The notes below the pieces were generated by a model that saw only the letters and a program-made list of their open reading frames with translations, had not been told where the DNA came from and did no database searches. Below, one piece after another: positions 4,276 through 38,408 of a stretch of 38,408 bases of DNA (position 1 is the stretch's first letter; each line of letters begins with the position of its first letter). The stretch spans positions 1 to 38,408 of the IMG/VR virus record IMGVR_UViG_3300033153_002985. One strand, given 5' to 3'. The position numbers and the translations under genes were made by a program. This stretch comes from a virus.

Positions 4276-4358
4276 TTTTTCGTACCGCAGTTTGGGCATT
4301 CTCTGTCCTTGCTTGGTGCGCCGCAAAGTTTGCAGATGTCTTTTTCTTCTATTACCAT
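4272..4358 (-). CDS. 28-residue zinc-ribbon protein
   Basis: A very small gene with ATG at 4358 preceded by GAAGGGATATTAAG, ending at 4272 with an ATGA overlap. The product has CxLCG...CxNCG, two Cys pairs spaced as in a minimal zinc ribbon. A longer in-frame start upstream (4469) would run antiparallel to a good gene and is rejected. Confidence 0.65.
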   Translation of the reverse strand: MVIEEKDICKLCGAPSKDRECPNCGTKK

Positions 4359-13456: not shown

Positions 13457-13477
13457 GCTTTCTCCTTGATTTTTAAA

Positions 13478-13507
13478 AGTATACCACTTTAACATAACGT
13501 TTGTCAA
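13478..13507 (-). promoter_or_regulatory. main leftward early promoter
   Basis: TTGACA (13502-13507) and TATACT (13478-13483), 18 bases apart, the -10 preceded by TGG (extended). This is the best sigma-70-type promoter in the window. It drives the 12-kb leftward chain. Its -35 lies at the edge of the divergent plus-strand leader. Confidence 0.8.
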
Positions 13508-13529: not shown

Positions 13530-13904
13530 TTAAGCTAGGTAATGCGACAATACAACATCGAAAAAGAGAAAAGCAAGCCCGACCAGCGCGAAACACGGCC
13601 TATGCGTAACCTCGACTTTTCGAGCCACACCATAAGCACCCATGAGCTTGTAGTTAGAGTAGGAGAAAGATAGGGTTCACCTGCGAATGTGTGGTTGTTT
13701 ACTCTTACAGCACACGCGCCAAGCCCGGCAAAGGTGGACAAGACCGTCTGTCCGTGTGCTGTATGATTTACAACTGTTAAGATTTTAAAGAGCGGGACAA
13801 GGCGAGACTGGAGGAGCGCGCCTGCCTTGCACGTGGGAAAATGTTGGATCGTAGCCAACTGTCTCGTTCTGAGAGTCTTAACAAGTTCTATAAAAGGGGT
13901 AAAG
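13530..13904 (+). ncRNA. structured non-coding leader of the plus-strand operon
   Basis: These ~375 bases hold no credible gene. The plus strand has an 11-bp stem 13706-13716/13753-13763, a hairpin CTCGA-cttt-TCGAG (13611-13624), GTTGG/CCAAC (13843-13847/13855-13859), and an enclosing 11-bp stem with one bulge (13772-13782/13876-13887). Inside that stem, CAAGGC (13798-13803) pairs with GCCTTG (13824-13829) and the adjoining GAGAC (13804-13808) pairs with GTCTC (13861-13865), a classic H-type pseudoknot. The last stem ends just before the AAAAGGGG ribosome site of the first gene. Strand is inferred from gene orientation. No clear promoter was found. Confidence 0.55.
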
Positions 13905-14546: not shown

Positions 14547-14676
14547 AGAATACGTTTGGTTTTTCAAAACGAGCTGGAGCTATGCGGGAGGAATTAAAAA
14601 CTTGAAGTCATTTATTGTCGGCCTTCCGCTGGCCACATGGAGATACAGAAAGTCAATAATTAGCGATAGGGCTTGA
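14536..14676 (+). CDS. 46-residue aromatic, possibly membrane-associated protein
   Basis: The ATG at 14536 overlaps the previous frame by 11 bases, and the TGA at 14674 falls inside the palindromic operator of the next promoter. The product is rich in Phe/Trp/Tyr, with a hydrophobic 'SFIVGLPLATW' followed by basic residues. Confidence 0.5.
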   Translation: MTFKEYVWFFKTSWSYAGGIKNLKSFIVGLPLATWRYRKSIISDRA

Positions 14677-14714
14677 TTTGTATCAAGGCAATAAATAACC
14701 AGGTATGCCATACT
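14673..14714 (+). promoter_or_regulatory. palindromic operator plus extended -10 promoter of the ERF gene
   Basis: TTGATTTGTATCAAGGC (14673-14689) is followed 16 bases later by TGC-CATACT (14706-14714). The sequence recurs with one change, at exactly the same spacing, at 33903-33944. The palindrome overlaps the -35 position, as expected for a regulated promoter. CCAG...CTGG (14700-14717) forms an additional dyad around the -10. Confidence 0.65.
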
Positions 14715-24098: not shown

Positions 24099-24700
24099 AA
24101 AACACTCCTATTGCAACTTAATAATTCTGCGTGCTTCTGCAATCCTTTTTTTACTTTATCGTCTTTGGAGAGCAATGCGTATCGATTAATTTCTGATATT
24201 TTTACTGTTAGATATGCATGGTGTGCTTCTTTTATTGAACCATAGCTACCTATATAACACCGCTTCCCAGCTATGGTTATTTGAGCAATATATTTTTTAT
24301 TTGGTTTGTTTAAATATACCCCCTGCGGGTAGTCGCCTCTTATTTTTTCGTTGCTTCGAAGAATCCCGTTTAATTCTTTCGAAACAAAAACACATCTGCT
24401 CGGCGCATATACTTTGTTTCCCGGGCGTACTATATCTTTATCTAGTTCTTTTCCTTTCCAATCCCTGTTCGCCATCCATTTTTTAAAATTAGAAAAATAA
24501 TGCCATTCTTCACATACAGAAACATCTGAATACGTTATTTGCCTTTTGTGAAACTCTTTGTCATATGCGCGCTTTAGCATATTAACCCATTTCATGTAGT
24601 ATGGGCAAAGAATGCATTTCCCGTTATCATCTTTCCATCTTACTGGCTCGCTGGAATCATTTATCCCGATACCGCATATTAGTTTATTCTTTTTTCTCAT
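24095..24700 (-). CDS. AP2-domain homing endonuclease-like protein
   Basis: A 201-residue protein: 'CPYYMKWVNMLKRAYDKEF...SVCEEWHYFSNFKKWM...DKDIVRPGNKVYAPSRCVFV' (the family's HNH-like core), then a C-terminal AP2 segment 'GVYLNKPNKKYIAQITIAGKRCYIGSYGSIKEAHHAY'. Such genes are selfish and sit between structural genes, here tape measure and distal tail. It is linked to both by ATGA overlaps and has no promoter of its own. Confidence 0.85.
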   Translation of the reverse strand: MRKKNKLICGIGINDSSEPVRWKDDNGKCILCPYYMKWVNMLKRAYDKEFHKRQITYSDVSVCEEWHYFSNFKKWMANRDWKGKELDKDIVRPGNKVYAPSRCVFVSKELNGILRSNEKIRGDYPQGVYLNKPNKKYIAQITIAGKRCYIGSYGSIKEAHHAYLTVKISEINRYALLSKDDKVKKGLQKHAELLSCNRSVL

Positions 24701-26811
24701 GATGCAAACCTTACATTAACGTTCATATCCTCTGATGTCTTAACAAACTCTTCAATAAAACCCCTCATGTTATCTTCGCTCATAAATGCGCCTCCCTCCG
24801 GGAATCCTGTAAAGGTAAAAGTTCTGTCTCTTGTCTCTGCTGTGACTGGCCCTGCTATATCAGACGGTGCTATCCCCGGCGTTGTTGTGCTTCCCCCGCC
24901 TGCTGTTGGTGCTGATGTGGTGCCACCACCACCGCCGAAAGATGCTCCTAGTATATTTTGCATTTGTGACATTTGGGCAGTAAGTGCAATGCCGCCCATT
25001 ATTGCACCTAATACTGGGCCACCTATCTTAGTTCCGAAGGCGTAAGAGTTCATCACCGCCTCAGGAGTAGCGATTGCAGCATTTGCAAGAGCCGCCGCTT
25101 TGTTTATTTCAAACATTGCTTTATTTCCATTAGCGACACCCGCTGTTAAAGAAGACATCTCGCTTAAAACGGCTTTTGTTTTTTGCTTCGCGGTCATCTC
25201 GTCGAATTTTCTTCTCTTCAATATGCCTTGCGCTTCGATATTCCCTAAATTGGCCTGATGTTGTAGTTCCAATTCTTCCAACAATGCTTTGCGCTCAACC
25301 TCTGTCACCATCTTTTGATTAAACGCATCTTCAACGATAGCGACTTCGCCTGCGAACTGCGCCAAAAGTGCCTCCTCGTTGAACATCGAATGTCTGAGGT
25401 TGTTGTATGCCTCTTTAATGGCGTCTATTTTCTCGATAGTCTCTTCGGGGTCTGCACCCTCTTCGCGTAGCTGGTCGCGTAGTGCCATTTGTTCGACAAG
25501 TTGGCGGCCTGTTTCGGTTTCAAGGCCGACACCCATTTTTCTTAGCGCATTAAGGTATTCGATACCACCGACATTATTTTGTACCATGTCGTTTTGAAGT
25601 CGTAGATTAACTAATGTTTCTTCTGCATTTAGCTTTTGTTTAAGCTGTTCGTTGTTGTATTTTTCTATAGCGTCTAATGCTTCTTTGTTTAGCGTTGTAT
25701 CTGCCGTAGGCGTAAGGCTTGATATTAATTCCGTTTTGTCTACTTCTGCTACTACCCCAAACAATTTAATATACTCGTCGGATAGCTTTTTTACATTGGC
25801 CTGTGCTTCGTCTGCCTTGGCTGCGATTACTTCAAGATTTCCAGCACCAAATCCGCCTTTTGCAGATATCGCCATTTTCGCGTTTAATTCTGACGCTAAC
25901 GCTGATGCTTTTGTAATTTCATCTATAAGCCTGAACTCTTCACGCTTCTTATCAAGGTCTCTGAGATGCTTTATTTTGTTGGTTATGTTGTCAAGCTCTC
26001 CCGCCAATCCCACTGCAAGCTCTTTTGTATCAGCAAATACATTTTTCATCATTTCGCCTGTGAGCTGTTGCCATGAGTTTGTGAGGTTTGAGGTTGCTTC
26101 GTCCATTGACTTGGCGGGGATAACCATTTCTTTCAGGCGATCATTAACAAGCCCGGCTACATCGTCTGTTTTTCTTAGCTCTTCATTTGTGAGGCCGAGT
26201 GAGTTAAGGAAACGTCCGAAGTCTGAGTTTGCTAATACTGTACCGCTTCCCAATGCATCGACTCCAGCTAATACCGCTTGAAACGGAATATTAGAGGTTG
26301 CGATTGATAGTCGTTTTGTTAATTCGATCATCTCTTCGGTAGATGCACCTGTTTTCTTCATGGCTGCGAATTGAGCGTTGAAAAGCTGTGTAGTCTGTCC
26401 GAGCGTGTGCGGGGTGAGCGCGTTGATCTCCTCTAGTCCTTTCATTGCTTCGGTTGCATCACGTGTCGCTAGTGTGTATTTCCGCGTGATGTCTAATGCT
26501 ACGCCTTTGGAATCTACATCGCCCGATGTTGCAACAATAAGCCTTTTTAGGGCCGTGATGTTGTTCTCCATCATGCGGTTGTACTCGAAGCCGTCCGCTA
26601 TGGCTGTTTTAACAATGCTTAACGCGCCATAGGCCGCCGCTAGGCCACCGACGGCGACCGCCATATTCTTTAATGATGATATGTTGCCATGTGATTGTTT
26701 TTCGGTTTTAGAGAGGGATTCGCCGAGGTCGTCGATACTATCGGTTATTTTTTTTAGCTTAATCGAGCCGTCGTCTTTAACATCAAACTTTAATATCAAC
26801 GACTCAGCCAT
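24697..26811 (-). CDS. tape measure protein
   Basis: A 704-residue protein, largely helical. Hydrophobic segments lie near residues 48-72 ('NMAVAVGGLAAAYGALSIVK') and in the C-terminal third ('GPVLGAIMGGIALTAQM'). A long coiled-coil middle and a Gly/Thr-rich linker near 640-665 complete it. It follows the G/GT chaperones, as in lambda. Length predicts a tail near 105 nm by the usual 1.5 angstrom per residue rule (inference). A late promoter lies directly upstream. Confidence 0.9.
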   Translation of the reverse strand: MAESLILKFDVKDDGSIKLKKITDSIDDLGESLSKTEKQSHGNISSLKNMAVAVGGLAAAYGALSIVKTAIADGFEYNRMMENNITALKRLIVATSGDVDSKGVALDITRKYTLATRDATEAMKGLEEINALTPHTLGQTTQLFNAQFAAMKKTGASTEEMIELTKRLSIATSNIPFQAVLAGVDALGSGTVLANSDFGRFLNSLGLTNEELRKTDDVAGLVNDRLKEMVIPAKSMDEATSNLTNSWQQLTGEMMKNVFADTKELAVGLAGELDNITNKIKHLRDLDKKREEFRLIDEITKASALASELNAKMAISAKGGFGAGNLEVIAAKADEAQANVKKLSDEYIKLFGVVAEVDKTELISSLTPTADTTLNKEALDAIEKYNNEQLKQKLNAEETLVNLRLQNDMVQNNVGGIEYLNALRKMGVGLETETGRQLVEQMALRDQLREEGADPEETIEKIDAIKEAYNNLRHSMFNEEALLAQFAGEVAIVEDAFNQKMVTEVERKALLEELELQHQANLGNIEAQGILKRRKFDEMTAKQKTKAVLSEMSSLTAGVANGNKAMFEINKAAALANAAIATPEAVMNSYAFGTKIGGPVLGAIMGGIALTAQMSQMQNILGASFGGGGGTTSAPTAGGGSTTTPGIAPSDIAGPVTAETRDRTFTFTGFPEGGAFMSEDNMRGFIEEFVKTSEDMNVNVRFAS

Positions 26812-26838
26812 AGAAAGCCCTTATTTTTTGATAATGTT

Positions 26839-26869
26839 AGTGTAAATAATTAGCATTTAATAGGGGCTA
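26839..26869 (-). promoter_or_regulatory. late promoter, tape measure gene
   Basis: TAGCCCCTATTAAA (26869-26856), 11 bases, TACACT, then TAACATT. The layout is identical to the copies before the portal and tail tube genes. The first TAG is also the stop codon of the GT frame. Confidence 0.7.
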
Positions 26870-27220
26870 TATGTTGACAGGTGACACTATTTCATGCTCG
26901 AACTCGCCCATAACTTCCAGTACCATAGCCTGATAATCGCCCGGTATGGCGAAGGTGTCCATTATGCGAAGCAGGGCCGACACGTCGAAGGTGCCGTTTT
27001 TAACGTCCCTACCATAACTGGCATACCCATAGCAATCAACTAAAATCCGTTCTATGGACAATAAGTCGGGTGCATGATAGATACATCTGTATTTATCTTT
27101 GTAGGGTTCGTGCTTGTCCCCAGGGATATCTAATATACAAGGCGGCTTCCCGTCTGAGAAATTAGAGCATGTCCGACAATCGGGGCCGCGCTTTCTTTGC
27201 CATCTGAGATGACTTAGGAC
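26867..27220 (-). CDS. tail assembly chaperone T domain (made by -1 frameshift, G-T fusion)
   Basis: This frame has no good start but is open in the -1 frame from the slippery site at 27220-27226 to the TAG at 26867, giving 117 residues. Fused to 142 residues of G it makes a ~259-residue GT protein. GT proteins recruit tail tube subunits onto the tape measure. The T part begins with a Cys cluster (DCRTCSNF..PPC..., then C-x-C-like residues) that may bind zinc, which is not usual for lambda GT. Confidence 0.85.
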   Translation of the reverse strand, partial: VLSHLRWQRKRGPDCRTCSNFSDGKPPCILDIPGDKHEPYKDKYRCIYHAPDLLSIERILVDCYGYASYGRDVKNGTFDVSALLRIMDTFAIPGDYQAMVLEVMGEFEHEIVSPVNI

Positions 27221-27645
27221 TTTCCCTTGACGGCCTTTTTCTTCTTGGCTTCTTTGATCTCTTTTTTGTCAAACTCGTATATCTTGGTTTGCACCGCCGC
27301 GACAAGAACATCAAGCCCTTCGCCGTTCCATATAGCCTCTTTCATTTCGTGAGTGCATGGGATGTCATTCCCGTTTTCATCTTTGAGCCCTTCCCATGAT
27401 ACGATAGAAGCAATGAATTTTTCTTTTGAAGAGTTCCCGCTATTGGTAGTTATTTTTATGTCGTCTGGGTCGCCGCTGATGTCAGAGGAGTTAATCAGCA
27501 CGTTAATAGCATCTGAGCGGTCTAATTGCTTGATAGTTATGGAGAACTCTTCCGAGGCAAAAGAAGTGCCTTTAAATAGCTCATCTGTGTTCTTAAGGGT
27601 GATTGTTTTCTTTTCGGTTTGAAGTTGGTCTTTGGTTAGTATCAT
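27214..27645 (-). CDS. tail assembly chaperone G
   Basis: A 143-residue protein between tail tube and tape measure, with a Lys-rich C-terminus (KKEIKEAKKKKAVKGKS). It is the shorter product of the G/GT pair. The start has AAAAAGGCCAC upstream, which is duplicated in tandem. Identified by position and by the frameshift signal. Confidence 0.85.
   Translation of the reverse strand: MILTKDQLQTEKKTITLKNTDELFKGTSFASEEFSITIKQLDRSDAINVLINSSDISGDPDDIKITTNSGNSSKEKFIASIVSWEGLKDENGNDIPCTHEMKEAIWNGEGLDVLVAAVQTKIYEFDKKEIKEAKKKKAVKGKS
27220..27226 (-). promoter_or_regulatory. -1 programmed frameshift site GGGAAAG
   Basis: The minus strand reads AAG GGA AAG TCC TAA, so G-GGA-AAG is in the required phase, six bases before the stop of G. 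It is the same heptamer used in phage lambda G/GT. The -1 frame continues without a stop for 117 codons. Confidence 0.9.
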
Positions 27646-27678
27646 TTTGTGGCCTTTTTATAGTTTTGTGGCCTTTTT
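27645..27678. repeat. tandem 15-bp repeat at the ribosome site of G
   Basis: TTTTGTGGCCTTTTT occurs at 27645-27659 and 27664-27678 (plus strand). On the minus strand this is two copies of AAAAAGGCCACAAAA. The second abuts the ATG of G. Confidence 0.8.
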
Positions 27679-27709
27679 TGTAGTGCGACAGGCCACCGCC
27701 GCACCGCTG

Positions 27710-28642
27710 TTAAGCGTAAGAAGCAGTGCCGTTTGTAAGAGTTGCTTTCAAGACCGAAGCGTCGGCATGATCGTCATAGTAACCTTTATAATTAAAAGAC
27801 TGCACAAGGCCCATCGGAGTATCTACCGTGACGCCTGTTGGTTCAAGCACAAGTTCTGCTACTTGGAACGCAAGAATATCCGCGCCCGATGTAAGCGTGA
27901 TGGTGATAGTCGTTTCGGTTTGGCTACGGGCCGCAAGCAGCAGCGTATCATCTACAAAGAGCGCGTCAAGCGTACCGGACACCATGGCAAGCCCCTCGGG
28001 AATATCACCACGAATCGCGCCATCATCAATCGTGTACTGGTCGCCGTCTAAGCTGTTGGTAAAATTGAGAGTGATGTTTTTAACGTCTGTTGCGCCTGAT
28101 AATGCAGCCTCAAACTTATTGAAACGGTCAAGGGCTACGACGGTAGGTGTCGCGACTTCTGATGTGTCTTTTGTCTCTTTGGCCCCGATAAGCGCGATTG
28201 ATGCCGTAAGTTCATCGTCGCCGCCAAAGGTAATCTCTAAAGAGTTGGCCTTCATACCGTTATCAAGGTAGAACAGAGATAAGTCGGTGTGTGCTTTTTC
28301 AATAAATGCCGACGGGGTATCGTCGCCCACTTTGAATACATGCTCGTATGTTGGCCCTGAACCTGTTGTGGCTGGCACGCCCATAAGAAGCTTAAGCCAA
28401 TGCCCAAACGCCGTAGCATCAACGGGAACGACTACAGATCCGTCAACAGACTTATAGCCGACAAAAGGGGCGGTCATGTTACGATTACCTGTGATTGTAG
28501 CGGTATCGTTTAATGCCTGAGTCTCTTTAAAGTCGAACGTGTTGAAGGGGAGTGTAAACGTAGCGGGTGAGCCTGGAGTCGTGCCGTAAACGGTTTCAAA
28601 TCCTAATCGCAGCTCTGAAGATGAGCCTTTTCCTTGAGCCAT
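27710..28642 (-). CDS. major tail tube protein
   Basis: A 310-residue protein starting 'MAQGKGSSSELRLGFETVYGTTPGSP', typical of tail tube proteins of the TTP_14 type. It has an alternating-strand body and a C-terminal domain. It forms the tube around the tape measure. It is preceded by its own late promoter, consistent with high-level production. Confidence 0.85.
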   Translation of the reverse strand: MAQGKGSSSELRLGFETVYGTTPGSPATFTLPFNTFDFKETQALNDTATITGNRNMTAPFVGYKSVDGSVVVPVDATAFGHWLKLLMGVPATTGSGPTYEHVFKVGDDTPSAFIEKAHTDLSLFYLDNGMKANSLEITFGGDDELTASIALIGAKETKDTSEVATPTVVALDRFNKFEAALSGATDVKNITLNFTNSLDGDQYTIDDGAIRGDIPEGLAMVSGTLDALFVDDTLLLAARSQTETTITITLTSGADILAFQVAELVLEPTGVTVDTPMGLVQSFNYKGYYDDHADASVLKATLTNGTASYA

Positions 28643-28669
28643 GATGAATCCTTATTTTTCTTGAATGTT

Positions 28670-28700
28670 AATATAAATCAAGCCCGTTTAATAGGGGCTA
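28670..28700 (-). promoter_or_regulatory. late promoter, tail tube gene
   Basis: TAGCCCCTATTAAA (28700-28687), 11 bases, TATATT, then TAACATT and an A-rich leader to the AAGGA ribosome site. The TAG doubles as the stop of the tail terminator gene. Confidence 0.7.
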
Positions 28701-29105
28701 TGAATACTCTCTAAACGTCACAGTAAACGGCAAAACGTAAAAGGTGTTCTTTGCTCCCATTTGCGCGCTTCCAGGATCGGCACTGCTCAGCGGGCTATCC
28801 GCCAATGGTACATCAAACACTAGGCCAGACATAGTGGCCTCTTTGAATATAACCTCTAGTGCATCGGCTAAAGTCTCAGCCCGCCCCGCCCCAATACCTG
28901 CGCGGGTATAGATAGCGATATATAAAAGGTACTCTTCTTTGTATGGTGTAGAGCCGCCCATTACTTCGCGCTCTGTTTCAAGTTGCCGGATAAGCGGGAT
29001 AATGAATTCATCCACATTAGCACCTTCGGTATTCTCATACACTATCGGCGTCGCCGACCAGTTGGCTTCCAAATACTCTTCAATTATTTTTCGTGCTGCT
29101 TTCAT
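28698..29105 (-). CDS. tail terminator-like protein
   Basis: A 135-residue protein. 'ARKIIEEYLEANWSATPIVYENTEGAN' and the 'YLLYIAIYTRAGIGAGRAETLAD' segment match DUF4128-type tail terminators that cap the tail tube at the head-proximal end. Its place between the tail completion and tube genes fits. Confidence 0.8.
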   Translation of the reverse strand: MKAARKIIEEYLEANWSATPIVYENTEGANVDEFIIPLIRQLETEREVMGGSTPYKEEYLLYIAIYTRAGIGAGRAETLADALEVIFKEATMSGLVFDVPLADSPLSSADPGSAQMGAKNTFYVLPFTVTFREYS

Positions 29106-29506
29106 AGTCCAAACTTCCTTTTTGTTTCGGCTTCGGCCCGCTTGTAAATACCTTCTGTAGCTTGCTTGGAGTGGCCCGCTTCCAACGCTTCAGCATACGC
29201 GAGATGATTTTGGATGATGATTGAGTCGCCTTTTTTAAACTTCTTTGAATACAAAGTAAAAGCATTTGCCATATTGTTTGCAAGTCCTTGATGTATAGCG
29301 TTCGGGTTTGCTGTCCAATTTGCAATTTTGTTAATGCTGATAATATTAGAAGCTCGGAATAGTCCGGTATCAACCGGGGATAGCTTCAAGATTCGGTTAT
29401 ATGCGAAATTAACAACATTCGCCATATTTCTGTTGCGTATCTTGACTGTTTTTTTGAGCTTCTTATCTAGTCCGCGCTGAAATGATTTTATGTTGCTCGA
29501 TATCAT
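29102..29506 (-). CDS. HK97 gp10-like tail/neck protein
   Basis: A 134-residue basic protein with 'NFAYNRILKLSPVDTGLFRASNII' and 'HLAYAEALEAGHSKQATEGIYKRA', the standard pattern of HK97 gp10-like proteins that complete the head-tail joint. ATGA overlaps at both ends. Confidence 0.85.
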   Translation of the reverse strand: MISSNIKSFQRGLDKKLKKTVKIRNRNMANVVNFAYNRILKLSPVDTGLFRASNIISINKIANWTANPNAIHQGLANNMANAFTLYSKKFKKGDSIIIQNHLAYAEALEAGHSKQATEGIYKRAEAETKRKFGL

Positions 29507-29850
29507 TTCCGCGCCTGCATGACATACATTACCGTTACGCCTTGCGCTACTATCTTCTCTACGTTGATAATGTCATGCGTTAAAGAATCTATCTCTACTT
29601 GACCTGTAATGGCTGGCTCTGTGCCTTTGTCGGCAATCGTCACCTTAATGTCACCCACGGCAACCAGGTTGCCCAATTCATTCGCTTTGTAATTCTCTAT
29701 AATGGCCTTCTGTGTTACAGGCGTTGGGGTCTTTGTGTTTGCCCCGGAAGCTGTGCTGTATGACGAAGCGATAGCGTTTATGATTATGTCGGTTCCAAAA
29801 TCATCAATCTGCTCAATAGCTATCTGTTTGAGGTCGGCGGCTATGCTCAT
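29503..29850 (-). CDS. head closure / head-tail joining protein
   Basis: A 115-residue beta-rich protein between the connector and gp10-like genes. Strands such as 'VGDIKVTIADKGTEPAITGQVEI' are compatible with a gp16/HK97 gp7-type stopper. Assigned mainly by order. Confidence 0.7.
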   Translation of the reverse strand: MSIAADLKQIAIEQIDDFGTDIIINAIASSYSTASGANTKTPTPVTQKAIIENYKANELGNLVAVGDIKVTIADKGTEPAITGQVEIDSLTHDIINVEKIVAQGVTVMYVMQARK

Positions 29851-30341
29851 CCTCTGAATACCTCAACTACGCCGGGGTTATTATCTAGAAATGGCGTAAG
29901 GTAATCAAGCACATAAGGCGGCAATTCGTTATTGGCAGGCTGAATCGTGTTGAAATCGACTTCCAATGGCCCCAGCTTCACCGAGTCGTAAGCATCGTTG
30001 CTGTCGGCTGCGGTCATGTCGGTAGAAAGCATGTAAATAGCCAATTCATAAACAGCGGTTTTTACACCAAGTGGTATCTCATCGACTGGATAGGTTTTAT
30101 TATCGATAGTCATTTCGGTACGAGGCCATTTAAGAGCCTGTGTTGTCGTGTAGCGCTCGCCCTCAAACTCTTCAAAGTCAACTCGCAGTGATGCCTGAGA
30201 GATTGCCCGATTCTTTACGTCATCGGTTCCCGTCCAGTTGTCCACATTTAGCCGTGTCAAAAAATACGCCTCTGCTTCCACTAGTGTTACATAACTGTTT
30301 GAATCTGTGCCGCCGACTGTCGCGTCTATTTCTAGAGCCAT
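29847..30341 (-). CDS. head-tail connector (DnaT-like/gp6-type)
   Basis: A 164-residue protein. 'SNSYVTLVEAEAYFLTRLNVDNW' and 'WPRTEMTIDNKTYPVDEIPLGVKTAVYELA' match the connector family often labelled DnaT-like in databases. It is a head-completion protein below the portal, not a replication factor. Overlaps the next gene. Confidence 0.85.
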   Translation of the reverse strand: MALEIDATVGGTDSNSYVTLVEAEAYFLTRLNVDNWTGTDDVKNRAISQASLRVDFEEFEGERYTTTQALKWPRTEMTIDNKTYPVDEIPLGVKTAVYELAIYMLSTDMTAADSNDAYDSVKLGPLEVDFNTIQPANNELPPYVLDYLTPFLDNNPGVVEVFRG

Positions 30342-30354
30342 TTAATATCCTTCA

Positions 30355-31560
30355 TTAGATTTCTTCACCCCACTCGAAAGAGCATCGCATGTCCGCAGTA
30401 GCCCCTTTGCCTATTACAACAAAATAATCTCCAGCTGTCAAAAAACAATCTATATGATCTGAGTCGGGGTTGGTCACATATTCAGTCACGTTGGCCTGCA
30501 AAAATCTTCCGCAGAACAATCCCGCCTTTGCGGTGTCTAGTTCCGAATCGGCGGCGAGTACTGGCAAAAACACCTCTATATTTCCCCCATTGTGCGGAGT
30601 CCATGAGCCTGTGTTTATAACAAATGCCGTTGTATCCCTTGTGCTATAGACTTCAAACTCGCCCTTCTTGCTTGATGTTACTATTAATCTGGCTCGCCTT
30701 AAATCTCTTGTATTGGTTTGTCCGTGGTGTAACAATGGTATTCTTAGCGCATAAATAGGGTCGCCGCCAGCGGTTACTGTTACCTCGTTGCCAGTAGATA
30801 CCGAGAACTGCTCCCTCGTCTTATTCCCGCCTTCGCTGGAAACATCAATACAGCCACTTTTAATCGTTACTTCGTCACCTTTGTTTATCGCTACAAATGC
30901 GGCAGACAGTGCGGGGTCAGGCATTACGATACTGTCCCGAGTGCCTACCAAATCAAAAGAATGAACGAGCTTTGATCTTCCCGTTGCGGAGTCACTTGTA
31001 AAAAAATAAATATCACCTACGCCCCGCCATTGCATTTGAATATCATAGAGATTGCCTTTTTCTACATCAAAACCTTCAGGGAGATGTTTTATTTCTTCTT
31101 CCATGGTTTCCACTCCACCATTTTTTAAAACAGCGTATAGCTTGCCATCTGCTTTGAGCCTGAAAAATACACCGCTTTCATGATTGAACATGCCGAAATT
31201 TCTTTCACCCTCTAAATTTTTATCTGGTAAAAATATCGATGCAGACCAGACATGGCCTCTATTTGGCTGATAACGCGGGTGCCTCTTGGTGTGTAGATGC
31301 GATTCATCATTTAAGACAGGGCCGGATTTAAACACCAGTTCCCCGCCAACACTTCCGCTGCGGGTTGATGTGCTTATGTCGAGTAATTCCGTGCCGTTCT
31401 CTTCCATAATCCACAATTGATAAGGAATATCAAAAGTAAACAGGCTATGCAAAACAGAATAATCACTAACGACTTTAGCGCGCCCGTAAGCATCCATCGT
31501 AAGCTCGCCATCACCCAACACAGTCTTTGTCTGCGTAAGGGGTCTTAAAAGGTCTCTCAT
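30355..31560 (-). CDS. large virion structural protein, possibly head decoration or fibre
   Basis: A 401-residue beta-rich protein. The middle ('HPRYQPNRGHVWSASIFLPDKNLEGERNFGMFNHESGVFFRLK') resembles structural proteins found near capsid genes in some phages. Position between the capsid and connector genes suggests an exposed head protein. AAAGGATTGCA precedes the ATG. Confidence 0.65.
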   Translation of the reverse strand: MRDLLRPLTQTKTVLGDGELTMDAYGRAKVVSDYSVLHSLFTFDIPYQLWIMEENGTELLDISTSTRSGSVGGELVFKSGPVLNDESHLHTKRHPRYQPNRGHVWSASIFLPDKNLEGERNFGMFNHESGVFFRLKADGKLYAVLKNGGVETMEEEIKHLPEGFDVEKGNLYDIQMQWRGVGDIYFFTSDSATGRSKLVHSFDLVGTRDSIVMPDPALSAAFVAINKGDEVTIKSGCIDVSSEGGNKTREQFSVSTGNEVTVTAGGDPIYALRIPLLHHGQTNTRDLRRARLIVTSSKKGEFEVYSTRDTTAFVINTGSWTPHNGGNIEVFLPVLAADSELDTAKAGLFCGRFLQANVTEYVTNPDSDHIDCFLTAGDYFVVIGKGATADMRCSFEWGEEI

Positions 31561-31610
31561 TGCAATCCTTTATAGATTTATCAACACCCGCCGAAGCGGA
31601 CGCAGTAAAG

Positions 31611-31757
31611 CTACTCTTTTGGAGCTTCTTGTTTTAGGGACTTGCCGTTTTTGTCGCATTGCTCGTTTCCGGCGGCCTCCCATTCTTTGATATCTACGGC
31701 ATATTTGACTTCGACAACTTTGGCTGTCCTGCCTGTCCCGGCCTTGAAGAAGGCCAT
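31611..31757 (-). CDS. small hypothetical protein in head module (48 aa)
   Basis: The ATG at 31757 lies two bases after the stop of the upstream gene, which contains its AAGGC ribosome site. The product has a beta-like start (TAKVVEVKYAVDI) and a charged end. It fills most of the gap between two structural genes. Function unknown. Confidence 0.65.
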   Translation of the reverse strand: MAFFKAGTGRTAKVVEVKYAVDIKEWEAAGNEQCDKNGKSLKQEAPKE

Positions 31758-31759
31758 TG

Positions 31760-32182
31760 TTAAGCCTTCGCCAAGTAACAACCCGCGACGATGTTGGTCT
31801 GCGCTGTACTGACCTTAACAGCCGTGACGCGCACGTGAGTCGGTGTCGAACCTCCGGCAGCTTCTACCGCTTGATTTCCGGTAAAGGCAACCTCAAACAG
31901 GCCAGTCTGTGCGGCTGCACCTGTGATATCCCATGAACTCTGCACTTCGCCTACTGGGTAGTAATTCGTACCGTCGCTTGATACTTCAAGGCCGAGCGTG
32001 AAATAATCCGAATCTGCTGGTGTACCCGCATTTGAAATAATGTTAAACACAGCAACAAAGCTGTTATCACCTAGCAGACCTGATATGGTTGCCGCTGTTT
32101 GGTCTCCTGACGCCGTGATAGTCACGCCGTCAATATCTAACACCTCCAGAAGAGAGTCAAATGTTCTTGAACCTTTAGGCAT
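31760..32182 (-). CDS. capsid decoration-like protein
   Basis: A 140-residue Thr/Ala/Gly-rich, all-beta protein directly after the major capsid gene, the usual place for decoration proteins. 'YFTLGLEVSSDGTNYYPVGEVQSSW' suggests an Ig- or jelly-roll-like fold. AAAGGAGACACT precedes the ATG. Confidence 0.65.
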   Translation of the reverse strand: MPKGSRTFDSLLEVLDIDGVTITASGDQTAATISGLLGDNSFVAVFNIISNAGTPADSDYFTLGLEVSSDGTNYYPVGEVQSSWDITGAAAQTGLFEVAFTGNQAVEAAGGSTPTHVRVTAVKVSTAQTNIVAGCYLAKA

Positions 32183-32192
32183 AGTGTCTCCT

Positions 32193-33098
32193 TTACGCTG
32201 TTACTGCTGCGTCTGTAATGTTTTTCAGACGTGCCGCTGATCTTGGAGCGAAGACGCCCATTCCGTTGTACCATTCGATACGTGTTCTTAGTGCTGGTTT
32301 GGTTTCCAGTTCACCAATGTCACGAACGTCCATCGTGCCGTTTTCAAGACCTGATACCTGACCTTCACCGATAGCCATAATATAAATAGAGGTTGTCGAA
32401 CCTGTTTCGGTATATCCGAGAATATCCGTATTTGTATTATCTTTATCCGCGATAAGAATCGGAAGGTCGTTGTATTTAGCAACCTGGCGACCGAACTCGT
32501 CAACTTCGTATGTGATGTTACCGCCGACTGCCGCTGTACGTGCTGCAACTGTCAGGCGTCTACGAACCGATTTAGACATAAGCAAGTATGTCGCGCTGTC
32601 TACTGCGTCGATAGCTTCATCAAGCTTGGCAAGCGAAAGACCTGCACCTGTTGCATGGTTAGCGATAAGTGCATCACCTGTCAAACGAATCTGAAGGCCG
32701 TCAAACTCACGCGGGTCTGCTGTTGAATCACCTTTTACAAACGTTTTAGTCCAGGCAAGTGAAAGAGCTTTAATCTTCATTGCTTCATGCACTGCACGTG
32801 AACCGCCACCCTGCGTATCGACGATAAACTTGTCGACATCTAAATCGCCACCTGCAATTACGAGGCTTTCGACTTGTGGGTTGATGATACCCGTTGATTC
32901 TGTATAAGATTCATTCACACCACGGAAACCGATTCCAGGGAGAGTTTCCTCTATGTTGTACTTGAGCGAGTTGCCCGCAATGCCTTCAAAAGGAAGTACA
33001 CGAAGGATGTCGCTTGTTTCTGCGAACTTCTCCATTACGCCTTGCTTGTAGACGTCGCCCGTTTCGAGCTTCGCCGCTTCTATGATAGTTAGTGCCAT
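32193..33098 (-). CDS. major capsid protein, HK97 fold
   Basis: A 301-residue protein with the N-arm 'IIEAAKLETGDVYKQGVMEKFAETSDILRVLPFE' and the C-terminal 'RTRIEWYNGMGVFAPRSAARL', the pattern of gp48-like HK97-fold capsid proteins. It lacks a long N-terminal delta domain, consistent with the separate scaffold gene just upstream. Confidence 0.9.
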   Translation of the reverse strand: MALTIIEAAKLETGDVYKQGVMEKFAETSDILRVLPFEGIAGNSLKYNIEETLPGIGFRGVNESYTESTGIINPQVESLVIAGGDLDVDKFIVDTQGGGSRAVHEAMKIKALSLAWTKTFVKGDSTADPREFDGLQIRLTGDALIANHATGAGLSLAKLDEAIDAVDSATYLLMSKSVRRRLTVAARTAAVGGNITYEVDEFGRQVAKYNDLPILIADKDNTNTDILGYTETGSTTSIYIMAIGEGQVSGLENGTMDVRDIGELETKPALRTRIEWYNGMGVFAPRSAARLKNITDAAVTA

Positions 33099-33101
33099 TT
33101 T

Positions 33102-33803
33102 TTATGCCCTACCTTGTTTCATTTTCTCCGTTGAGCTCATGCTCTGGGAGTTATTGTTCACGACTTGGCGCTGATTGCCCATGCCGCCGCCGCCTGGTGG
33201 TGTCTCAGGTTCGAGATGTCTCGCCCAAAGTGGATCTTTTCTCATGTTATCCACGAATTGAACGGGTTGGATATACTCGCCTGTCTGAATATTCTTCGCA
33301 GGTTCGTTGTTCTCGTCTTTGACGTACATTTTGCCGTCACGATGAATGAATGAGTTTTTAATATGGTTGATTACATTGGCCTTAAGCATCGGGTCATCTG
33401 TGATGAATCCCTTAAGCAGGCCGCCGTTTTCAATCTCCGTCGAGAATACCAAATCCTCATTCGCCTTTTGAAGCGTTGCGTTTGTCGTGTCTTTTTGAGT
33501 GATTACTGTGCGTAGCTCGTTAAGCTGGCCTTCGTATTTACTCTTAATCGCGTCATCATCTGCGGTTTTGTCCAAAACCTTAGAAAGTGCATCGACTGAA
33601 AGATCGCCCTCGATATCAAACTGCTTTGCGATTGCATCGTTTAGCGTTATCATGTCGCGGTTTTTTGTCTTGGCTTTGTCGCGCGTTTCTAAAGCCTCAT
33701 CAAATACGCCTTGCAGTTTAGTAAGCCCGTCTTTTAACTGGCCTCTAACCTCTTCATCTTCTACCGTGTCGAGCATTTCCCCGAACTGTGAAAAGTAATT
33801 CAT
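33102..33803 (-). CDS. scaffold protein
   Basis: A 233-residue, acidic, coiled-coil-rich protein directly upstream of the major capsid gene, four bases apart. It ends with a Gly/Asn/Gln-rich stretch and a basic tip (TEKMKQGRA), the usual capsid-contacting end of scaffolds. No protease motif was recognised. Preceded by a late-type promoter and a hairpin leader. Confidence 0.85.
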   Translation of the reverse strand: MNYFSQFGEMLDTVEDEEVRGQLKDGLTKLQGVFDEALETRDKAKTKNRDMITLNDAIAKQFDIEGDLSVDALSKVLDKTADDDAIKSKYEGQLNELRTVITQKDTTNATLQKANEDLVFSTEIENGGLLKGFITDDPMLKANVINHIKNSFIHRDGKMYVKDENNEPAKNIQTGEYIQPVQFVDNMRKDPLWARHLEPETPPGGGGMGNQRQVVNNNSQSMSSTEKMKQGRA

Positions 33804-33822
33804 GTTTACCCTTTGTTATATT

Positions 33823-33857
33823 GCTATCCAGCCTAACAAGGCAAGCTATCCAGCTTG
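33823..33857 (-). promoter_or_regulatory. repeated GGAT-loop hairpins in the scaffold leader
   Basis: GCTATCCAGC occurs twice, 22 bp apart (33823-33832, 33845-33854). On the minus strand one copy forms the perfect hairpin CAAGCT-GGAT-AGCTTG, the other a weaker GCT-GGAT-AGC. A GCCT-TGTT-AGGC stem lies between them. Possible protein-binding sites on DNA or in the mRNA leader. Confidence 0.5.
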
Positions 33858-33884
33858 ATAAAATAATAATAGCTTTTAGATTGA

Positions 33885-33898
33885 TTTAATAGGGGCTA
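33885..33898 (-). promoter_or_regulatory. late promoter element, scaffold gene
   Basis: The minus strand carries TAGCCCCTATTAAA as in the other three late units. Here the best -10 (TATTAT) is 13 rather than 11 bases away and TAACATT is not conserved, so this is the most divergent copy. Confidence 0.55.
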
Positions 33899-33902
33899 GA
33901 AA

Positions 33903-33944
33903 TTGATATGTATCAAGGCTTTTTAGTTTTATTTGTGTAATAAT
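33903..33944 (+). promoter_or_regulatory. palindromic operator and extended -10 promoter of the lone zinc-finger gene
   Basis: TTGATATGTATCAAGGC (33903-33919), 16 bases, TGT-AATAAT. One base differs from the operator at 14673 and the spacing to TGn is identical. It lies five bases from the divergent late promoter element, so one bound protein could affect both. Confidence 0.65.
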
Positions 33945-33965
33945 TATAAAAACAGGGGGTTAAAC

Positions 33966-34436
33966 ATGAGTTTTCATGAAACGTATAAAGAAAAAGTCTG
34001 TAAGCGCTGCCATGAGAGTAAAAATATTTCTGATTTTGTAGTGCCATATGGAGATGGTGTGGCGTCTAGACCGTATTGCTCCGAATGCAGACGGCTTATT
34101 GTTCTTGAAAAAAACGCGTATCAGGCTGCTCTGGTCAAAAAAAGGCAAGCCGAAAAAAGAAAAGAAAGGGCCTTAATGCTTAAAAGCGGTGAGGCTTTTA
34201 TTTGCCCCAGATGCAAACGTAATTTTCTCATAAAATATAAAACTAAAAATGGGATTTGCACAGGCTGTGCTAAACAAATAATAGGCAATGAAGAATATAA
34301 TAAAATGATAGATTCTGCCGAAGAGCGCAGGAAAATAATACGCAAAAAATGGGCCACATCTCAACACGAAAAGGCAGAGGCCGAGAACAAAGAGCAGGAT
34401 ATGATTGCTGCTTTCTTAAAAAAGAAAAAAGATTAG
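33966..34436 (+). CDS. zinc-finger protein, lone plus-strand gene in the head module
   Basis: A 156-residue basic protein with an N-terminal CxRC...CSEC finger (CKRCHESKNISDF...YCSEC), a second CPRC...CTGC finger (about 80-105) and a charged helical C-terminus ending KKKKD. The N-terminal finger resembles those of the HNH endonucleases here, but no nuclease core is seen. The start at 33966 follows AGGGGG. It runs opposite to all neighbours, overlaps the MuF-like stop, and has its own operator-controlled promoter: the profile of a cargo ('moron') or regulatory gene. Confidence 0.8.
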   Translation: MSFHETYKEKVCKRCHESKNISDFVVPYGDGVASRPYCSECRRLIVLEKNAYQAALVKKRQAEKRKERALMLKSGEAFICPRCKRNFLIKYKTKNGICTGCAKQIIGNEEYNKMIDSAEERRKIIRKKWATSQHEKAEAENKEQDMIAAFLKKKKD

Positions 34437-35533
34437 ACCACGTTAAGGTTTTTCTTTATCTCCGGTATCGTAAGGCGTTGGTTTCGCGTCTTACTTACAA
34501 GGTCGTTAAAATCCGCGCCCTCGTCTTGAAACAGTTTGTATCTACCCGCGCCCAAATATGCTTTTTGCTCTGTTTTCGGCCATGTCTTAAATATCTCTTT
34601 AAACGATTTATCGCTGCTAACCTCGCCCGTCTTTTTAGGCGTGAACTTCGTGGAGGTCGTGCCGTCTCGATGATGTACTGTCCGTTTATCCCATATCACA
34701 GTAGGGCGGGTTGTCGGTTCCTCTAAAGTCTCTTTAGTCTCAGGAATTAGGATTGACCTGCAATTATAATGCAGTGCTGGCTGGTTCGGTACGTTGCTGA
34801 TAGTGCCATACTTCGACAATGGATAATATACCCCGTCAAGATTCGCGCATATCTCAGAGGTGCGATTGTCGAGTGTCGCCGTATAGGTGTAGCCGACAAT
34901 CTGCCCGCCCTTCTCCATTTGTGCGTATCCTTCCATCTGCGCCTCACGTACCGCCTGGGTCATCGCTGTGCGCGCTATGGTGTCAATATCTCGCCGTTCG
35001 ATCTTTGCAATCACATCGCTTGTCGCGTCTATCATGCGGGCTTGTCGTTGGGCTTCTGATATCCCTGTACCGTCATAAAGGCTGTTAGCGATTGATTTTC
35101 TCAATTTGCTGGATATGCCGAAGATGAAGTTTTCTTTATACTCTTTGAGCGTATAGCCTAATATCGGCCTTGTCGGGTCAAGTATTCTTTTGATTGCCGC
35201 GTCTGGGAGGGTAGAATAAACCGCCGCCGTTGCCCCAACTGATGTTGCTAGTTTCGCCGTAGCGTTGTAGCTGATTGGTGCGACCTCTTCCATGTCTTTC
35301 ATAATGAGCGCGTCGAACTCGCTGAAAGCTTTGGCTATCTCTTCGTTTACCGTTTGCCGAAGCACTATCAGTCTGCGTTTGTCGGTCAAGTCGCCTGTCG
35401 TGGCTATCTTGGCGTTAATGACTTCTTTCGCCATATTGAGCGCGTCGATAGTTATTTCTATCGTGTCGGGTTTGTAGCGTTCAAGGTATAGAAATGTCGC
35501 TAATACCTTGCTGATTAGTGGGTTTTCACTCAT
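34433..35533 (-). CDS. MuF-like minor head protein
   Basis: A 366-residue protein. Residues ~175-275 hold the Mu F-type domain ('IARTAMTQAVREAQMEGYAQMEKGGQIVGYTYTATLDNRTSEICANLDG...ALHYNCRS'). These proteins are attached to the portal and are packaged in the head. It overlaps the portal gene by eight bases. Confidence 0.9.
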   Translation of the reverse strand: MSENPLISKVLATFLYLERYKPDTIEITIDALNMAKEVINAKIATTGDLTDKRRLIVLRQTVNEEIAKAFSEFDALIMKDMEEVAPISYNATAKLATSVGATAAVYSTLPDAAIKRILDPTRPILGYTLKEYKENFIFGISSKLRKSIANSLYDGTGISEAQRQARMIDATSDVIAKIERRDIDTIARTAMTQAVREAQMEGYAQMEKGGQIVGYTYTATLDNRTSEICANLDGVYYPLSKYGTISNVPNQPALHYNCRSILIPETKETLEEPTTRPTVIWDKRTVHHRDGTTSTKFTPKKTGEVSSDKSFKEIFKTWPKTEQKAYLGAGRYKLFQDEGADFNDLVSKTRNQRLTIPEIKKNLNVV

Positions 35534-36914
35534 TGCTTGCCGCTGGAATTATTGGCAGAAACTCACTTTCAAGATTGCCCGCCTCTTCATCTTTGTCGAA
35601 GTCCTCCGCGAGCCATTCGCCTAAAATCATCATATCCCATAGCGTGTCATTACTCATTTGGCCTTTGCCTACCATATCGCTAAGTACGCGCATCTGCTCA
35701 ACCGATAGCGTTTTCTTGAATATGTCGCTATTGACCGTAACCGTGCCGCCGTCTTTTTTGTAGTAAAGCCCCGTGAAGTGCAAAAGTTGTTCGAGCGTGT
35801 CTTTGAGTTGTCGCACCCATCCCGCCATCTGTGATATCTCTTCGGTCTTGTCAAGTATCTTTTCGGTTGCGGTTACGTCGGTCTGTTTGTCAGCCAATAC
35901 AGATAAGCCCATGATAGACATTCGCTGTTCCAGGTCGGTCATAAGGTCGCGGTTGAGGTTCACCCCGGCACCGTCGTATGAAGTCCATCCTAGCTTCGCG
36001 TCCGGGTTCTCTTCCACTATTGCCCGATTGACTCCGATCGTTAAGCTTGTAAAATTCTTTTTATCCACTCCAATGGCGGTAAAGATAGGCACCGACGCGA
36101 TATGTGCAGAGTGCCGCGTATCTGAGTAAATCTGATAGTGTGCGATGTTCATTTCGCAAAGCTCTATCAATGGCGGCAATGCCTCCATGCTTGGCGCGTT
36201 GGTGTCGAGGTTAAGTTCTGCCAACGGAATAACGTTAATTCCTGTCAAGCCTTCGTCATGTACTGCAAATTCGCCTTTTTTGCCTTCGCGGTAAATCGTC
36301 CATGCCCCAGGAGTCAATACGCGATACTGCGTGATAGTCTCTTCTCCAAACTGCCCTACAGGCTCCGATACCGTTTCGGCAATAGTGATCTGCATAAGCA
36401 CATTTTCCCCGCCGACACGCTTGTATCTCCAGTTAAGAACATTACGGGCATTTACAAGCACCCAATAGGGCCGCCTGTTTAATCTTTGCTCATCGGCTTT
36501 GCTTTTAACTTCGCCTTCGGCTTTTGGCATTTCCACGTAAGCGTAATGCAGACCGTCACGTATGCCGTTATCGAATAGTTTCTTTGCGAACACGTCAAAA
36601 TGGTTACCGTCAAGATCAATGCTGGTTTCAATATCTTTGATTTGCGAAGGGACATCTTCGTTAAGTTCGGGGTTTTTTAAGAAAGCGATACCAGACAGAG
36701 AATCAACCGTTTTGTTAAACACGTTAAAAAGAACGGCTTTAGATAGGCGGGAGTTGTAGCTTTTAGCCTCTTCTTTTTCTTCTTGGGGCAAGTATGTTGT
36801 GGTTTTGCTTTTTACGTGCTCAGTGCCTAATGAAAGATCGTAGGTTTTTGTCCAATTCTTTTTCATTGCTGTAACGGCTGGTAGTTCAAAAGAAGGGAGG
36901 TTGTGCTTATCCAT
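35526..36914 (-). CDS. portal protein (DUF4055-like)
   Basis: A 462-residue protein. 'SLSGIAFLKNPELNEDVP', 'YWVLVNARNVLNWRYKRVGGENVL' and the 'LPPLIELCEMNIAHYQIYSDTRHS' helix match portal proteins of the DUF4055 type. It forms the dodecameric DNA gate and partners TerL and the MuF-like protein. A late promoter separates it from the inserted endonuclease gene. Confidence 0.9.
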   Translation of the reverse strand: MDKHNLPSFELPAVTAMKKNWTKTYDLSLGTEHVKSKTTTYLPQEEKEEAKSYNSRLSKAVLFNVFNKTVDSLSGIAFLKNPELNEDVPSQIKDIETSIDLDGNHFDVFAKKLFDNGIRDGLHYAYVEMPKAEGEVKSKADEQRLNRRPYWVLVNARNVLNWRYKRVGGENVLMQITIAETVSEPVGQFGEETITQYRVLTPGAWTIYREGKKGEFAVHDEGLTGINVIPLAELNLDTNAPSMEALPPLIELCEMNIAHYQIYSDTRHSAHIASVPIFTAIGVDKKNFTSLTIGVNRAIVEENPDAKLGWTSYDGAGVNLNRDLMTDLEQRMSIMGLSVLADKQTDVTATEKILDKTEEISQMAGWVRQLKDTLEQLLHFTGLYYKKDGGTVTVNSDIFKKTLSVEQMRVLSDMVGKGQMSNDTLWDMMILGEWLAEDFDKDEEAGNLESEFLPIIPAASNE

Positions 36915-36940
36915 AAATTACCCTATTTTTTGCAAATGTT

Positions 36941-36971
36941 ATTATAATTAAGGGGGTTTTAATAGGGGCTA
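36941..36971 (-). promoter_or_regulatory. late promoter, portal gene
   Basis: TAGCCCCTATTAAA (36971-36958), 11 bases, TATAAT (a perfect -10), then TAACATT. This is the best copy of the late promoter family. Confidence 0.75.
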
Positions 36972-36973
36972 GA

Positions 36974-37582
36974 TTATTCGTACCTCCACCTATAGCCGCC
37001 CGCAGTTTCTCTTTCTCCTCTACAGCATGAAGCTAGATTTCCACAAGATACGCCTGTTTGTCTTTTTGCATCCTGCGCTGATACAAATTTATTTAACTCT
37101 TCGCCATCGAGTTTATATTGAATAACTGTTTTTTGCGGCCTATGTCCATGTTTAATTTTACCTGAGCGCATATCTGCCTCCGCCTTGGCTTTATTCTCGC
37201 CCCACGTCATAAGCTGGATATTATCAAAACTATATCCTTTTTTGTCATCTTTCCTGTCTATACTCGGCGACAGGTTTTTATTATAATCAGACTCTACCCA
37301 TTTTTGATACAATGGCCCAAACTCAATTTTAGAAAATATCCATATTCTCAATTCGCCAAGTGTGTATTTTGGTACGCTGTGGCCTCTGCTTCTGCTGCTT
37401 CCTAGCTGGGAACTATAGATATTTGCCACTAGGCCGCTTTTGGTTTTCTTATATGCTGCGCTTCGTAAATTATTGCATCTTTTACACTGTAATTTTAAAC
37501 CGTCTCTATTGGCTTTCTGTTTGCCAAAATCATCTATTGGTTTTTCTGTTTTACATTCGGTGCATTTTTTAGAAGTGTTCAT
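36974..37582 (-). CDS. HNH homing endonuclease with zinc finger and NUMOD1-like domain (copy 2)
   Basis: A 202-residue protein: zinc finger CTEC...CKRC, core 'SPSIDRKDDKKGYSFDNIQLMTWGEN', C-terminal NUMOD1 pattern 'SAQDAKRQTGVSCGNLASCCRG' ending GGYRWRYE. It is homologous over its whole length to the gene at 7138-7746. The start at 37582 follows TTGGAG. It sits between TerL and the portal gene. Its promoter overlaps the TerL stop codon. Confidence 0.9.
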   Translation of the reverse strand: MNTSKKCTECKTEKPIDDFGKQKANRDGLKLQCKRCNNLRSAAYKKTKSGLVANIYSSQLGSSRSRGHSVPKYTLGELRIWIFSKIEFGPLYQKWVESDYNKNLSPSIDRKDDKKGYSFDNIQLMTWGENKAKAEADMRSGKIKHGHRPQKTVIQYKLDGEELNKFVSAQDAKRQTGVSCGNLASCCRGERETAGGYRWRYE

Positions 37583-37661
37583 GTAGGTTCTCCAATTCAA
37601 TTTCCAATTCAGAACAAATGAGAGGCCGCTAAACCTCTCGAATTGGACTTATATTATACCA
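37583..37661 (-). promoter_or_regulatory. promoter and hairpin leader of homing endonuclease copy 2
   Basis: TGGTATAAT (37653-37661) is followed by a nested hairpin: CCAATTC...GAATTGG enclosing GAGAGG...CCTCTC. The start TTTTATGGTATAAT, ATAAGyCCA and GCnGCCTCTCA are shared with the leader of copy 1. The TAA inside TATAAT-context is the TerL stop. Confidence 0.65.
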
Positions 37662-38408
37662 TAAAAGAAACTGAACCTGACTCGCTAACCCTTATCGGGA
37701 ATCTTACCGCGGTGTAATATCTTAATGCGGTGGTGATGTGCTGGTAATCGCTGTCTTTTTCTTGAAAAGACGAGCCTTCTTTTAGCTGCACTGTTGCTAG
37801 CCCTTTGTCGGCGTATTTGCATTTTTTATTATTTACATACAAGTGTGTTTCGTTTGCCGCGTTTAATATTCTGGCTCTTAATGAATTCTGTCCGTCAATA
37901 ATTTTGCCGTTTGCTTTTGGCACTTTATCCCTAACTGACCAGCCCTCTTTTTTTAATATGTCTTTGATAATCGTAAAGTTTGAATCTTGCGCGTGCTTCT
38001 CCCCAGCTCGCCCACTTGCATCGCCATATAAAATCACTTGTTTCACTTGTGCTGCTTTGTACCGCTCCACAAACTCTAACGCTGCATTTCTGGCTACTGC
38101 GCTTTCTAATATGATTTCATCTACCACGCAAGACACATCGCCGTACTCCTGTACTATTGCACTACTCATCGGCGTATAATTAAAGTCGTGACACCACATT
38201 ATAGGCCGGGTATCATCATATTCCTTATTGGTGTGGTTGGCTTTCGAGTAATCTTCATACACTCGCCCCGTTGCAGTTTCAAAACTGGCCTCGTATTCCT
38301 GTTTAAATTGCTTCGCGCTCATGTGACGCTTTGCTGCTTCGATTGTCTTCGCTGGCAATATCTCCGCACTCGTCCAGTGGTATGCCTTCCAATCTGGGTC
38401 ACCGCTGT
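37654..38408 (-). CDS. terL: terminase large subunit, C-terminal (nuclease) part
   Basis: This is the continuation of the gene that starts at 664. It holds the RNase H-like nuclease domain: 'MWCHDFNYTPMSSAIVQ' (first catalytic Asp), 'ILYGDASGRAGEKH' (second Asp) and 'DYQHITTALRYYTAVRFP' near the end. It runs off base 38408 because of the 114-bp overlap. The last three residues and stop (FMV-TAA) are contained in the promoter start shared by the two endonuclease inserts, so the extreme C-terminus may have come with the insert. Confidence 0.95.
   Translation of the reverse strand, partial: SGDPDWKAYHWTSAEILPAKTIEAAKRHMSAKQFKQEYEASFETATGRVYEDYSKANHTNKEYDDTRPIMWCHDFNYTPMSSAIVQEYGDVSCVVDEIILESAVARNAALEFVERYKAAQVKQVILYGDASGRAGEKHAQDSNFTIIKDILKKEGWSVRDKVPKANGKIIDGQNSLRARILNAANETHLYVNNKKCKYADKGLATVQLKEGSSFQEKDSDYQHITTALRYYTAVRFPIRVSESGSVSFMV
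38295..38408. repeat. terminal direct repeat, right copy (circular closure)
   Basis: Identical to bases 1-114. One copy should be removed to obtain the 38,294-bp circle. Confidence 0.95.

Follow-up and report, generated by a model that had tools for sequence, protein, structure and literature searches.

The principle of recruiting polymerase through a site-specific activator is known from lambda CII, phage Mu C and T4 MotA. At lambda CII promoters a 14-base-pair (bp) activator site lies at -35 and the -10 follows 13 bp later. In the C-dependent late promoters of phage Mu (lys, I, P and mom), which the host polymerase reads, the activator C, acting as a dimer, has its site at or slightly upstream of a poor -35, and the -10s deviate from consensus (PMC4461284). 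In T4 the MotA box is centred at -30, 12 +/- 1 bp from the -10 (PMC2988021). Here we describe a 14-base box, TAGCCCCTATTAAA, found upstream of four late-gene blocks in the genome of an uncultured bacterial virus (IMG/VR record IMGVR_UViG_3300033153_002985; the whole stretch analysed, 38,408 nucleotides, is referred to as the window). We propose, with a probability of roughly 0.78, that the boxes are the upstream elements of four late promoters and that a DNA-binding activator encoded by the phage recruits the host RNA polymerase to them.

The window lacks the DNA elements that define those families. Its novelty lies in the system as such and in the comparison between phages, where the same four promoter positions carry different boxes in different genomes. 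Like the MotA/AsiA-dependent middle promoters of T4, the window has a one-sided phage box in place of the -35, a fixed distance to a host-type -10 and no phage RNA polymerase; with the -10 placed 11 bases after the box, one of two registers considered below, the box is centred near -30 as is the MotA box. However, the box sequence is unrelated and precedes late structural genes, the favoured register centres it near -36, the TGCTT core of the MotA box is present at none of the four sites, and the 11-bp spacing to TANANT holds at three of the four only. No match to the MotA or AsiA families was found among the scanned proteins, many small early genes being unassigned. The late promoters of Mu resemble those proposed here in number (four), in having an upstream activator site and in using the host polymerase, but no Mor/C family protein was found in the scans and the box, which contains neither an inverted nor a direct repeat, lacks a dyad (palindromic match 2/14). 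Lambda CII promoters share the 14-bp site followed by a -10, and the best matches of our candidate box reader, a small helix-turn-helix (HTH) protein, in structure and profile searches include CII at non-significant scores; they differ in that the window sites have no TTGC-N6-TTGC and the box no direct repeat. Unlike P2 Ogr/Delta promoters, the sites have no TGT-N12-ACA within 60 bp (expected near -55). YuA-type sigma-54 late promoters also differ, GG-N10-GC being absent at three sites and occurring once near the fourth, with 235 such patterns genome-wide. In contrast to promoters of T7-like polymerases, there is no phage polymerase gene and no constant initiating G, and the CACTA(T/A)AG-type core is unmatched in the genome. 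A likeness of the box to T3-type polymerase promoters (10/14 letters by eye) was dropped, given no polymerase gene and no conserved start G.

The 14-base box and its probable -10 element

The box occurs in exactly four copies, all on the minus strand and none on the plus strand, confirming both the number and the places reported in a first-pass annotation made from the sequence alone (Table 1). Each lies 45-81 bases upstream of the portal, scaffold, tail or tape-measure gene. The identities that the annotation gave to these genes were borne out by PHROG matches for portal, scaffold and tape measure, and its tail tube belongs to a 'minor tail protein' family. The record is complete, its first and last 114 bases being identical (1-114 = 38295-38408); the circle is 38,294 bp and the terminase large subunit gene, cut by the record ends, has a reading frame that spans the junction. 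Apart from the box, no 13- or 14-mer reaches three occurrences in this circle, and 60 simulated genomes of matched dinucleotide make-up had no 14-mer more than twice. All four copies fall within the 5% intergenic share of the late half, one of them overlapping a stop codon (rough P 8e-6). Between sites the box is 100% identical, while the linkers are 36-42% and the upstream flanks under 30% identical. Because linkers and flanks have diverged around an invariant box, selection acts on the box itself, and recent duplication of a cassette does not account for the four copies (flank and linker identities 27-42% overall). The base right after the box is A, C, T and T at the four sites.

Eleven variable bases separate the box from TATAAT, TATATT or TACACT at portal, tail and tape measure; AACATT comes next in all three, and 3-4 bases further on begins an AAAAATA-rich ribosome-binding region. 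This is the -10 that had been annotated at first, with TAACATT overlapping its end, and at these three sites it is readily seen. The scaffold site falls outside this register, having no -10 at 11 bases, whereas TA(A/T)(C/T)ATT stands 16 bases after the box at all four (TAACATT three times, TATTATT at scaffold). The 16-base register is favoured because the window sites agree in both position and sequence with those of a related phage, L030, described below: aligned on the box, all eight sites open with TA-N-CC-Y-C-Y, and TA-NN-AT lies 30 bp further on. From these alignments the real -10 is probably TAACATT/TATTATT, and the box would then probably span about -42 to -29. The initial view that the box lies over the -35 thus needs adjusting: it is beside or over the -35 region and no -35 is present, but it does not sit squarely on that position. 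When TTGACA was sought at 16-18 bp spacing at three sites in the 11-base register, the best match was 1/6, and the TG of an extended -10 is absent from the box promoters.

Predicted promoter positions and upstream elements in related phages

The late half had no DNA match in the phage collection searched, and the portal protein as query found no kin. A set of IMG/VR contigs encodes major head proteins 70-85% identical to that of the window, although identity in portal and other head genes falls to 20-30%. Of the records found, the nearest relative is IMGVR_UViG_3300022542_000154 (L032/L204), with identities of 85% in the head protein, 73% in the terminase small subunit, 78% in Erf and 53-59% in two tail genes. 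The exact box is in none of the head-protein relatives inspected, and the box together with its -10 had no match in IMG/VR or in GTDB genomes; the bare 14-mer occurs in at least 119 IMG/VR stretches, and the 80 examined resemble chance matches. The first-pass annotation had named absence of the boxes from close relatives of like gene order as refuting; no such close relative was found, and the more distant kin lack this exact box yet have predicted promoters, in two cases with boxes of their own, before these genes.

Comparison of these genomes indicates that the predicted promoter positions are conserved among relatives and that the upstream element is genome-specific. L032 has TATG(C/T)TATAATA upstream of portal, scaffold, tail and tape measure, and L027 and L028 have NTATAAT promoters at the same four positions. 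Over 16 contigs the extended -10 TATGNTATAAT was observed 34 times against 0.8 expected, nearly always between genes and close upstream of a gene start, and no conserved -35 was found at these promoters. Two relatives carry an additional element. L022 (IMGVR_UViG_3300019762_000018) has six extended -10 promoters. Four of them (portal block, scaffold, tail and tape measure) bear a pair of AACAAANNGYAAT-like copies spaced 19 bp apart, and exactly 8 bp lie between the lower copy and the -10; the other two have no visible pair. In L030 (IMGVR_UViG_3300032253_000232), exactly 20 bp separate TA(A/T)CCTCCCA from a following TACAAT or TACCAT upstream of portal, scaffold, tail and tape measure, and allowing up to one mismatch, the whole record holds just two further matches, near its end. 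The shared 8/8 pattern, in position as well as sequence, suggests that the window and L030 boxes are versions of one system. The L030 box plus TACAATT was found in 13 IMG/VR stretches, two of them from one contig, about the number expected by chance on a rough estimate.

In an automatic motif search over the relatives, for a box at a fixed distance from a -10, the window and L030 were recovered at a level that none of the 40 shuffles reached. For L022, 9 of the 40 did as well, so the evidence there is the exact motifs and distances given above; the fourth hit of the search was L218. Genomes that have kept the promoter positions and changed the box make the rewiring of late-gene control by phages directly testable. 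Late operons in related genomes from metagenomes can be predicted from the box, and the set as a whole gives alignable late promoters and candidate switch proteins for a group without a close cultured member in the phage collection searched.

The host is plausibly a campylobacterot. The N-terminus of the tape measure has matches in 29 of 298 genomes from the phylum of a Sulfuricurvum metagenome-assembled genome (MAG; best 45%, E 4e-51), as against weaker matches to another region of the protein in 8 of 298 from the phylum of a Burkholderiales MAG; the family of the candidate HTH reader has matches in 3/298 and 0/299, respectively. Main-sigma promoters of Campylobacter jejuni read gnTAnaAT and have no -35 (PMC3847290). 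If the host is indeed a campylobacterot, the missing -35 would be ordinary and the box the special part. The TATGNTATAAT promoters of the relatives resemble Campylobacterota main-sigma promoters in their strong (extended) -10 without a -35, but the host promoters lack a specific upstream 14-mer box. A prophage (L252) in a phylum-mate of the Sulfuricurvum MAG, with the 45% identical tape-measure stretch, differs in its head module, which is unrelated, and lacks promoters of this type.

Proposed activator-dependent late promoters and the alternatives

The window sites combine a specific box, a fixed distance to the -10, the lack of a -35 and repetition at several late operons, as at activator-dependent (class II-like) late promoters. 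Under this proposal transcription of the portal, scaffold, tail and tape-measure blocks would start from the four boxed promoters, where the host RNA polymerase, carrying the main sigma factor, would read the -10 in the favoured register. A phage-encoded, sequence-specific activator bound to the box, beside or over the -35 position, would aid recognition; such help is proposed because the -35 and the extended -10 TG are both missing. The activator would be made from early or middle genes, so that the particle genes would be switched on together and late. Related phages would use the same four positions with a different box and presumably a different reader. We infer all three of active promoters, late timing and a phage-encoded activator. 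The most likely role of the box is to dock a late-gene activator of the phage, since relatives have promoters at matching positions before these blocks and in two of them the tag is a different one.

The first-pass annotation, having seen no phage RNA polymerase gene, expected either an activator or a sigma-appropriating protein to read the box. Family scans of the complete genome indeed recognised no phage RNA polymerase and no sigma factor, with several small early proteins unassigned. The activator half of the expectation is well supported by the activator-type architecture and by L030 and L022, which have boxes of their own before these genes, but nothing specific was found for appropriation and no AsiA- or MotA-like gene was recognised; sigma appropriation by a phage protein is possible.

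Several observations weigh against activator-dependent promoters. No gene could be linked to the box. The exact box is carried by no close relative, so that between-species conservation gives no support, nor were close kin of L030 or L022 seen to retain the boxes of those phages. Many relatives manage with extended -10 promoters that show no visible box, and an activator is therefore not universal in the group. Finally, TATAAT, TATATT and TACACT at 11 bases are also a good fit at three sites.

The box could instead be an operator through which a phage repressor silences the late genes in a lysogen, with the host polymerase reading the -10 unaided, although we regard this as improbable. A short, asymmetric site in one orientation relative to transcription and within short intergenic gaps would suit an operator, as would the box-less extended -10 promoters of relatives and the small HTH proteins that the phage encodes. 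However, there are just four copies, all at late structural promoters and at a fixed distance from the -10. The stoperators of mycobacteriophage L5, one-sided 13-bp sites, would be a parallel, but unlike the box they occur in larger numbers and at no set distance from a -10. Moreover, the window -10s are weak and have neither -35 nor TG, so that they seem to need help rather than silencing, and neither an integrase nor a clear repressor was recognised in the complete genome.

Direct reading of the box as an unusual -35 by an alternative sigma factor of host or phage appears less likely still. The constant spacing from box to -10 at all sites would be explained, but no sigma factor was recognised in the phage, 14 bp exceeds a -35 hexamer, and the core TARCCYC would lie at -42 to -36 in the favoured register, upstream of the sigma region 4 contact. 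The boxes also differ between phages at the same genes, which is not expected from one host sigma. Least likely of all is an RNA element (processing site or translation control) in read-through late transcripts, which the lack of convincing upstream terminators and the ribosome-binding region conserved after the conserved block at three sites would allow, but to which the repeat-free box, the -10-like element at a fixed distance and the relatives' promoters at exactly these positions are opposed.

Candidate readers, the scaffold region and other genes

If a phage activator reads the box, the preferred candidate is the HTH protein encoded at 4114-4299. AlphaFold predicts the HTH with confidence (predicted local distance difference test score about 90 in this part), its third helix being long. 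It is preferred because its relatives adjoin the terminase gene terL in L029, L022 and L032, the L022 and L032 assignments being weak and that of L022 made by eye. We regard it as a speculative lead that would fail more often than it succeeded. Searches gave no significant sign of membership of the lambda CII family (phrog_725 E 0.02, Foldseek E above 1, no BLASTP alignment with lambda CII). Two other candidates are listed in Table 1. The product of 4858-5085 was considered as a ribbon-helix-helix protein and set aside, a single-sequence model giving a beta hairpin and one long helix. It is a tentative idea, on the doubtful side, that this phage family keeps the four-promoter plan and swaps box and reader, so that the late-gene code would be peculiar to each phage and its key a small HTH protein that changes fast.

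Table 1. Boxes, -10 elements, genes and candidate readers in the window
Feature	Position	Strand	Basis and remarks
Box before portal	36958-36971	-	Exact match to TAGCCCCTATTAAA
Box before scaffold	33885-33898	-	Exact match
Box before tail protein	28687-28700	-	Exact match; TAG of the box is the preceding gene's stop codon
Box before tape measure	26856-26869	-	Exact match
Favoured -10 TAACATT, portal	36935-36941	-	8-site alignment, 16 bases after box; alternative TATAAT 36941-36946, 11 bases after
Favoured -10 TATTATT, scaffold	33862-33868	-	8-site alignment, 16 bases after box
Favoured -10 TAACATT, tail	28664-28670	-	8-site alignment; alternative TATATT 28670-28675
Favoured -10 TAACATT, tape measure	26833-26839	-	8-site alignment; alternative TACACT 26839-26844
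Portal gene	35526-36914	-	PHROG 145, E 7e-107; downstream of first box
Scaffold gene	33102-33803	-	PHROG 206, E 7e-9; downstream of second box
Major head protein	32193-33098	-	PHROG 212, E 4e-80; query used for finding relatives
Tail protein (PHROG 'minor tail protein'; tail tube in first-pass annotation)	27710-28642	-	PHROG 290, E 5e-45; downstream of third box
Tape measure gene	24697-26811	-	PHROG 9483, E 3e-27; downstream of fourth box; longest gene product, 704 aa
Extended -10 promoter TTATGTTATAAT before terminase operon	1412-1417	-	No box
Small HTH protein, 62 aa, preferred candidate reader	4111-4299	-	Family alignment, AlphaFold model
Zinc-ribbon-like protein (CxxC...CxxC), second candidate reader	4360-4557	-	Sequence; Pfam zinc-ribbon match not significant
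HTH protein near replication genes, further candidate reader	13298-13507		

The box-less promoter before the terminase operon indicates that the phage has ordinary promoters too. In five relatives (L016, L021, L026, L031 and L032) the scaffold mRNA leader begins with a hairpin that has a 9-bp stem and a loop of three bases, and the ribosome-binding site comes after it. The hairpins have the same place and shape and different stem sequences; single-sequence z-scores are weak and covariation was judged by eye. The scaffold leader of the window (33804-33860, minus strand) also opens with a CAAGC...GCTTG hairpin. Such a hairpin could be an RNA operator for autoregulation of scaffold or capsid.

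Between the head morphogenesis and scaffold genes lies a plus-strand gene (33963-34436) with zinc-finger/HNH-like cysteines, opposite in direction to all late genes, and L032 has opposite-strand genes at the matching place (8575-9173). The promoter region of this gene overlaps the scaffold promoter, which may explain the deviating scaffold site. Near-identical palindromes, TTGAT(T/A)TGTATCAA, occur beside the scaffold box (33903-33916) and before the Erf operon (14673-14686), and are possibly the operator of a phage repressor. Two related genes of the endonuclease VII/HNH homing type (7138-7746 and 36974-37600, minus strand), the latter standing between terminase and the portal box, each have TTATGGTATAAT upstream, at 7829 and 37658. 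In the early region, ARAGORN called a tRNA-Ala (TGC) at 13792-13869 on the plus strand.

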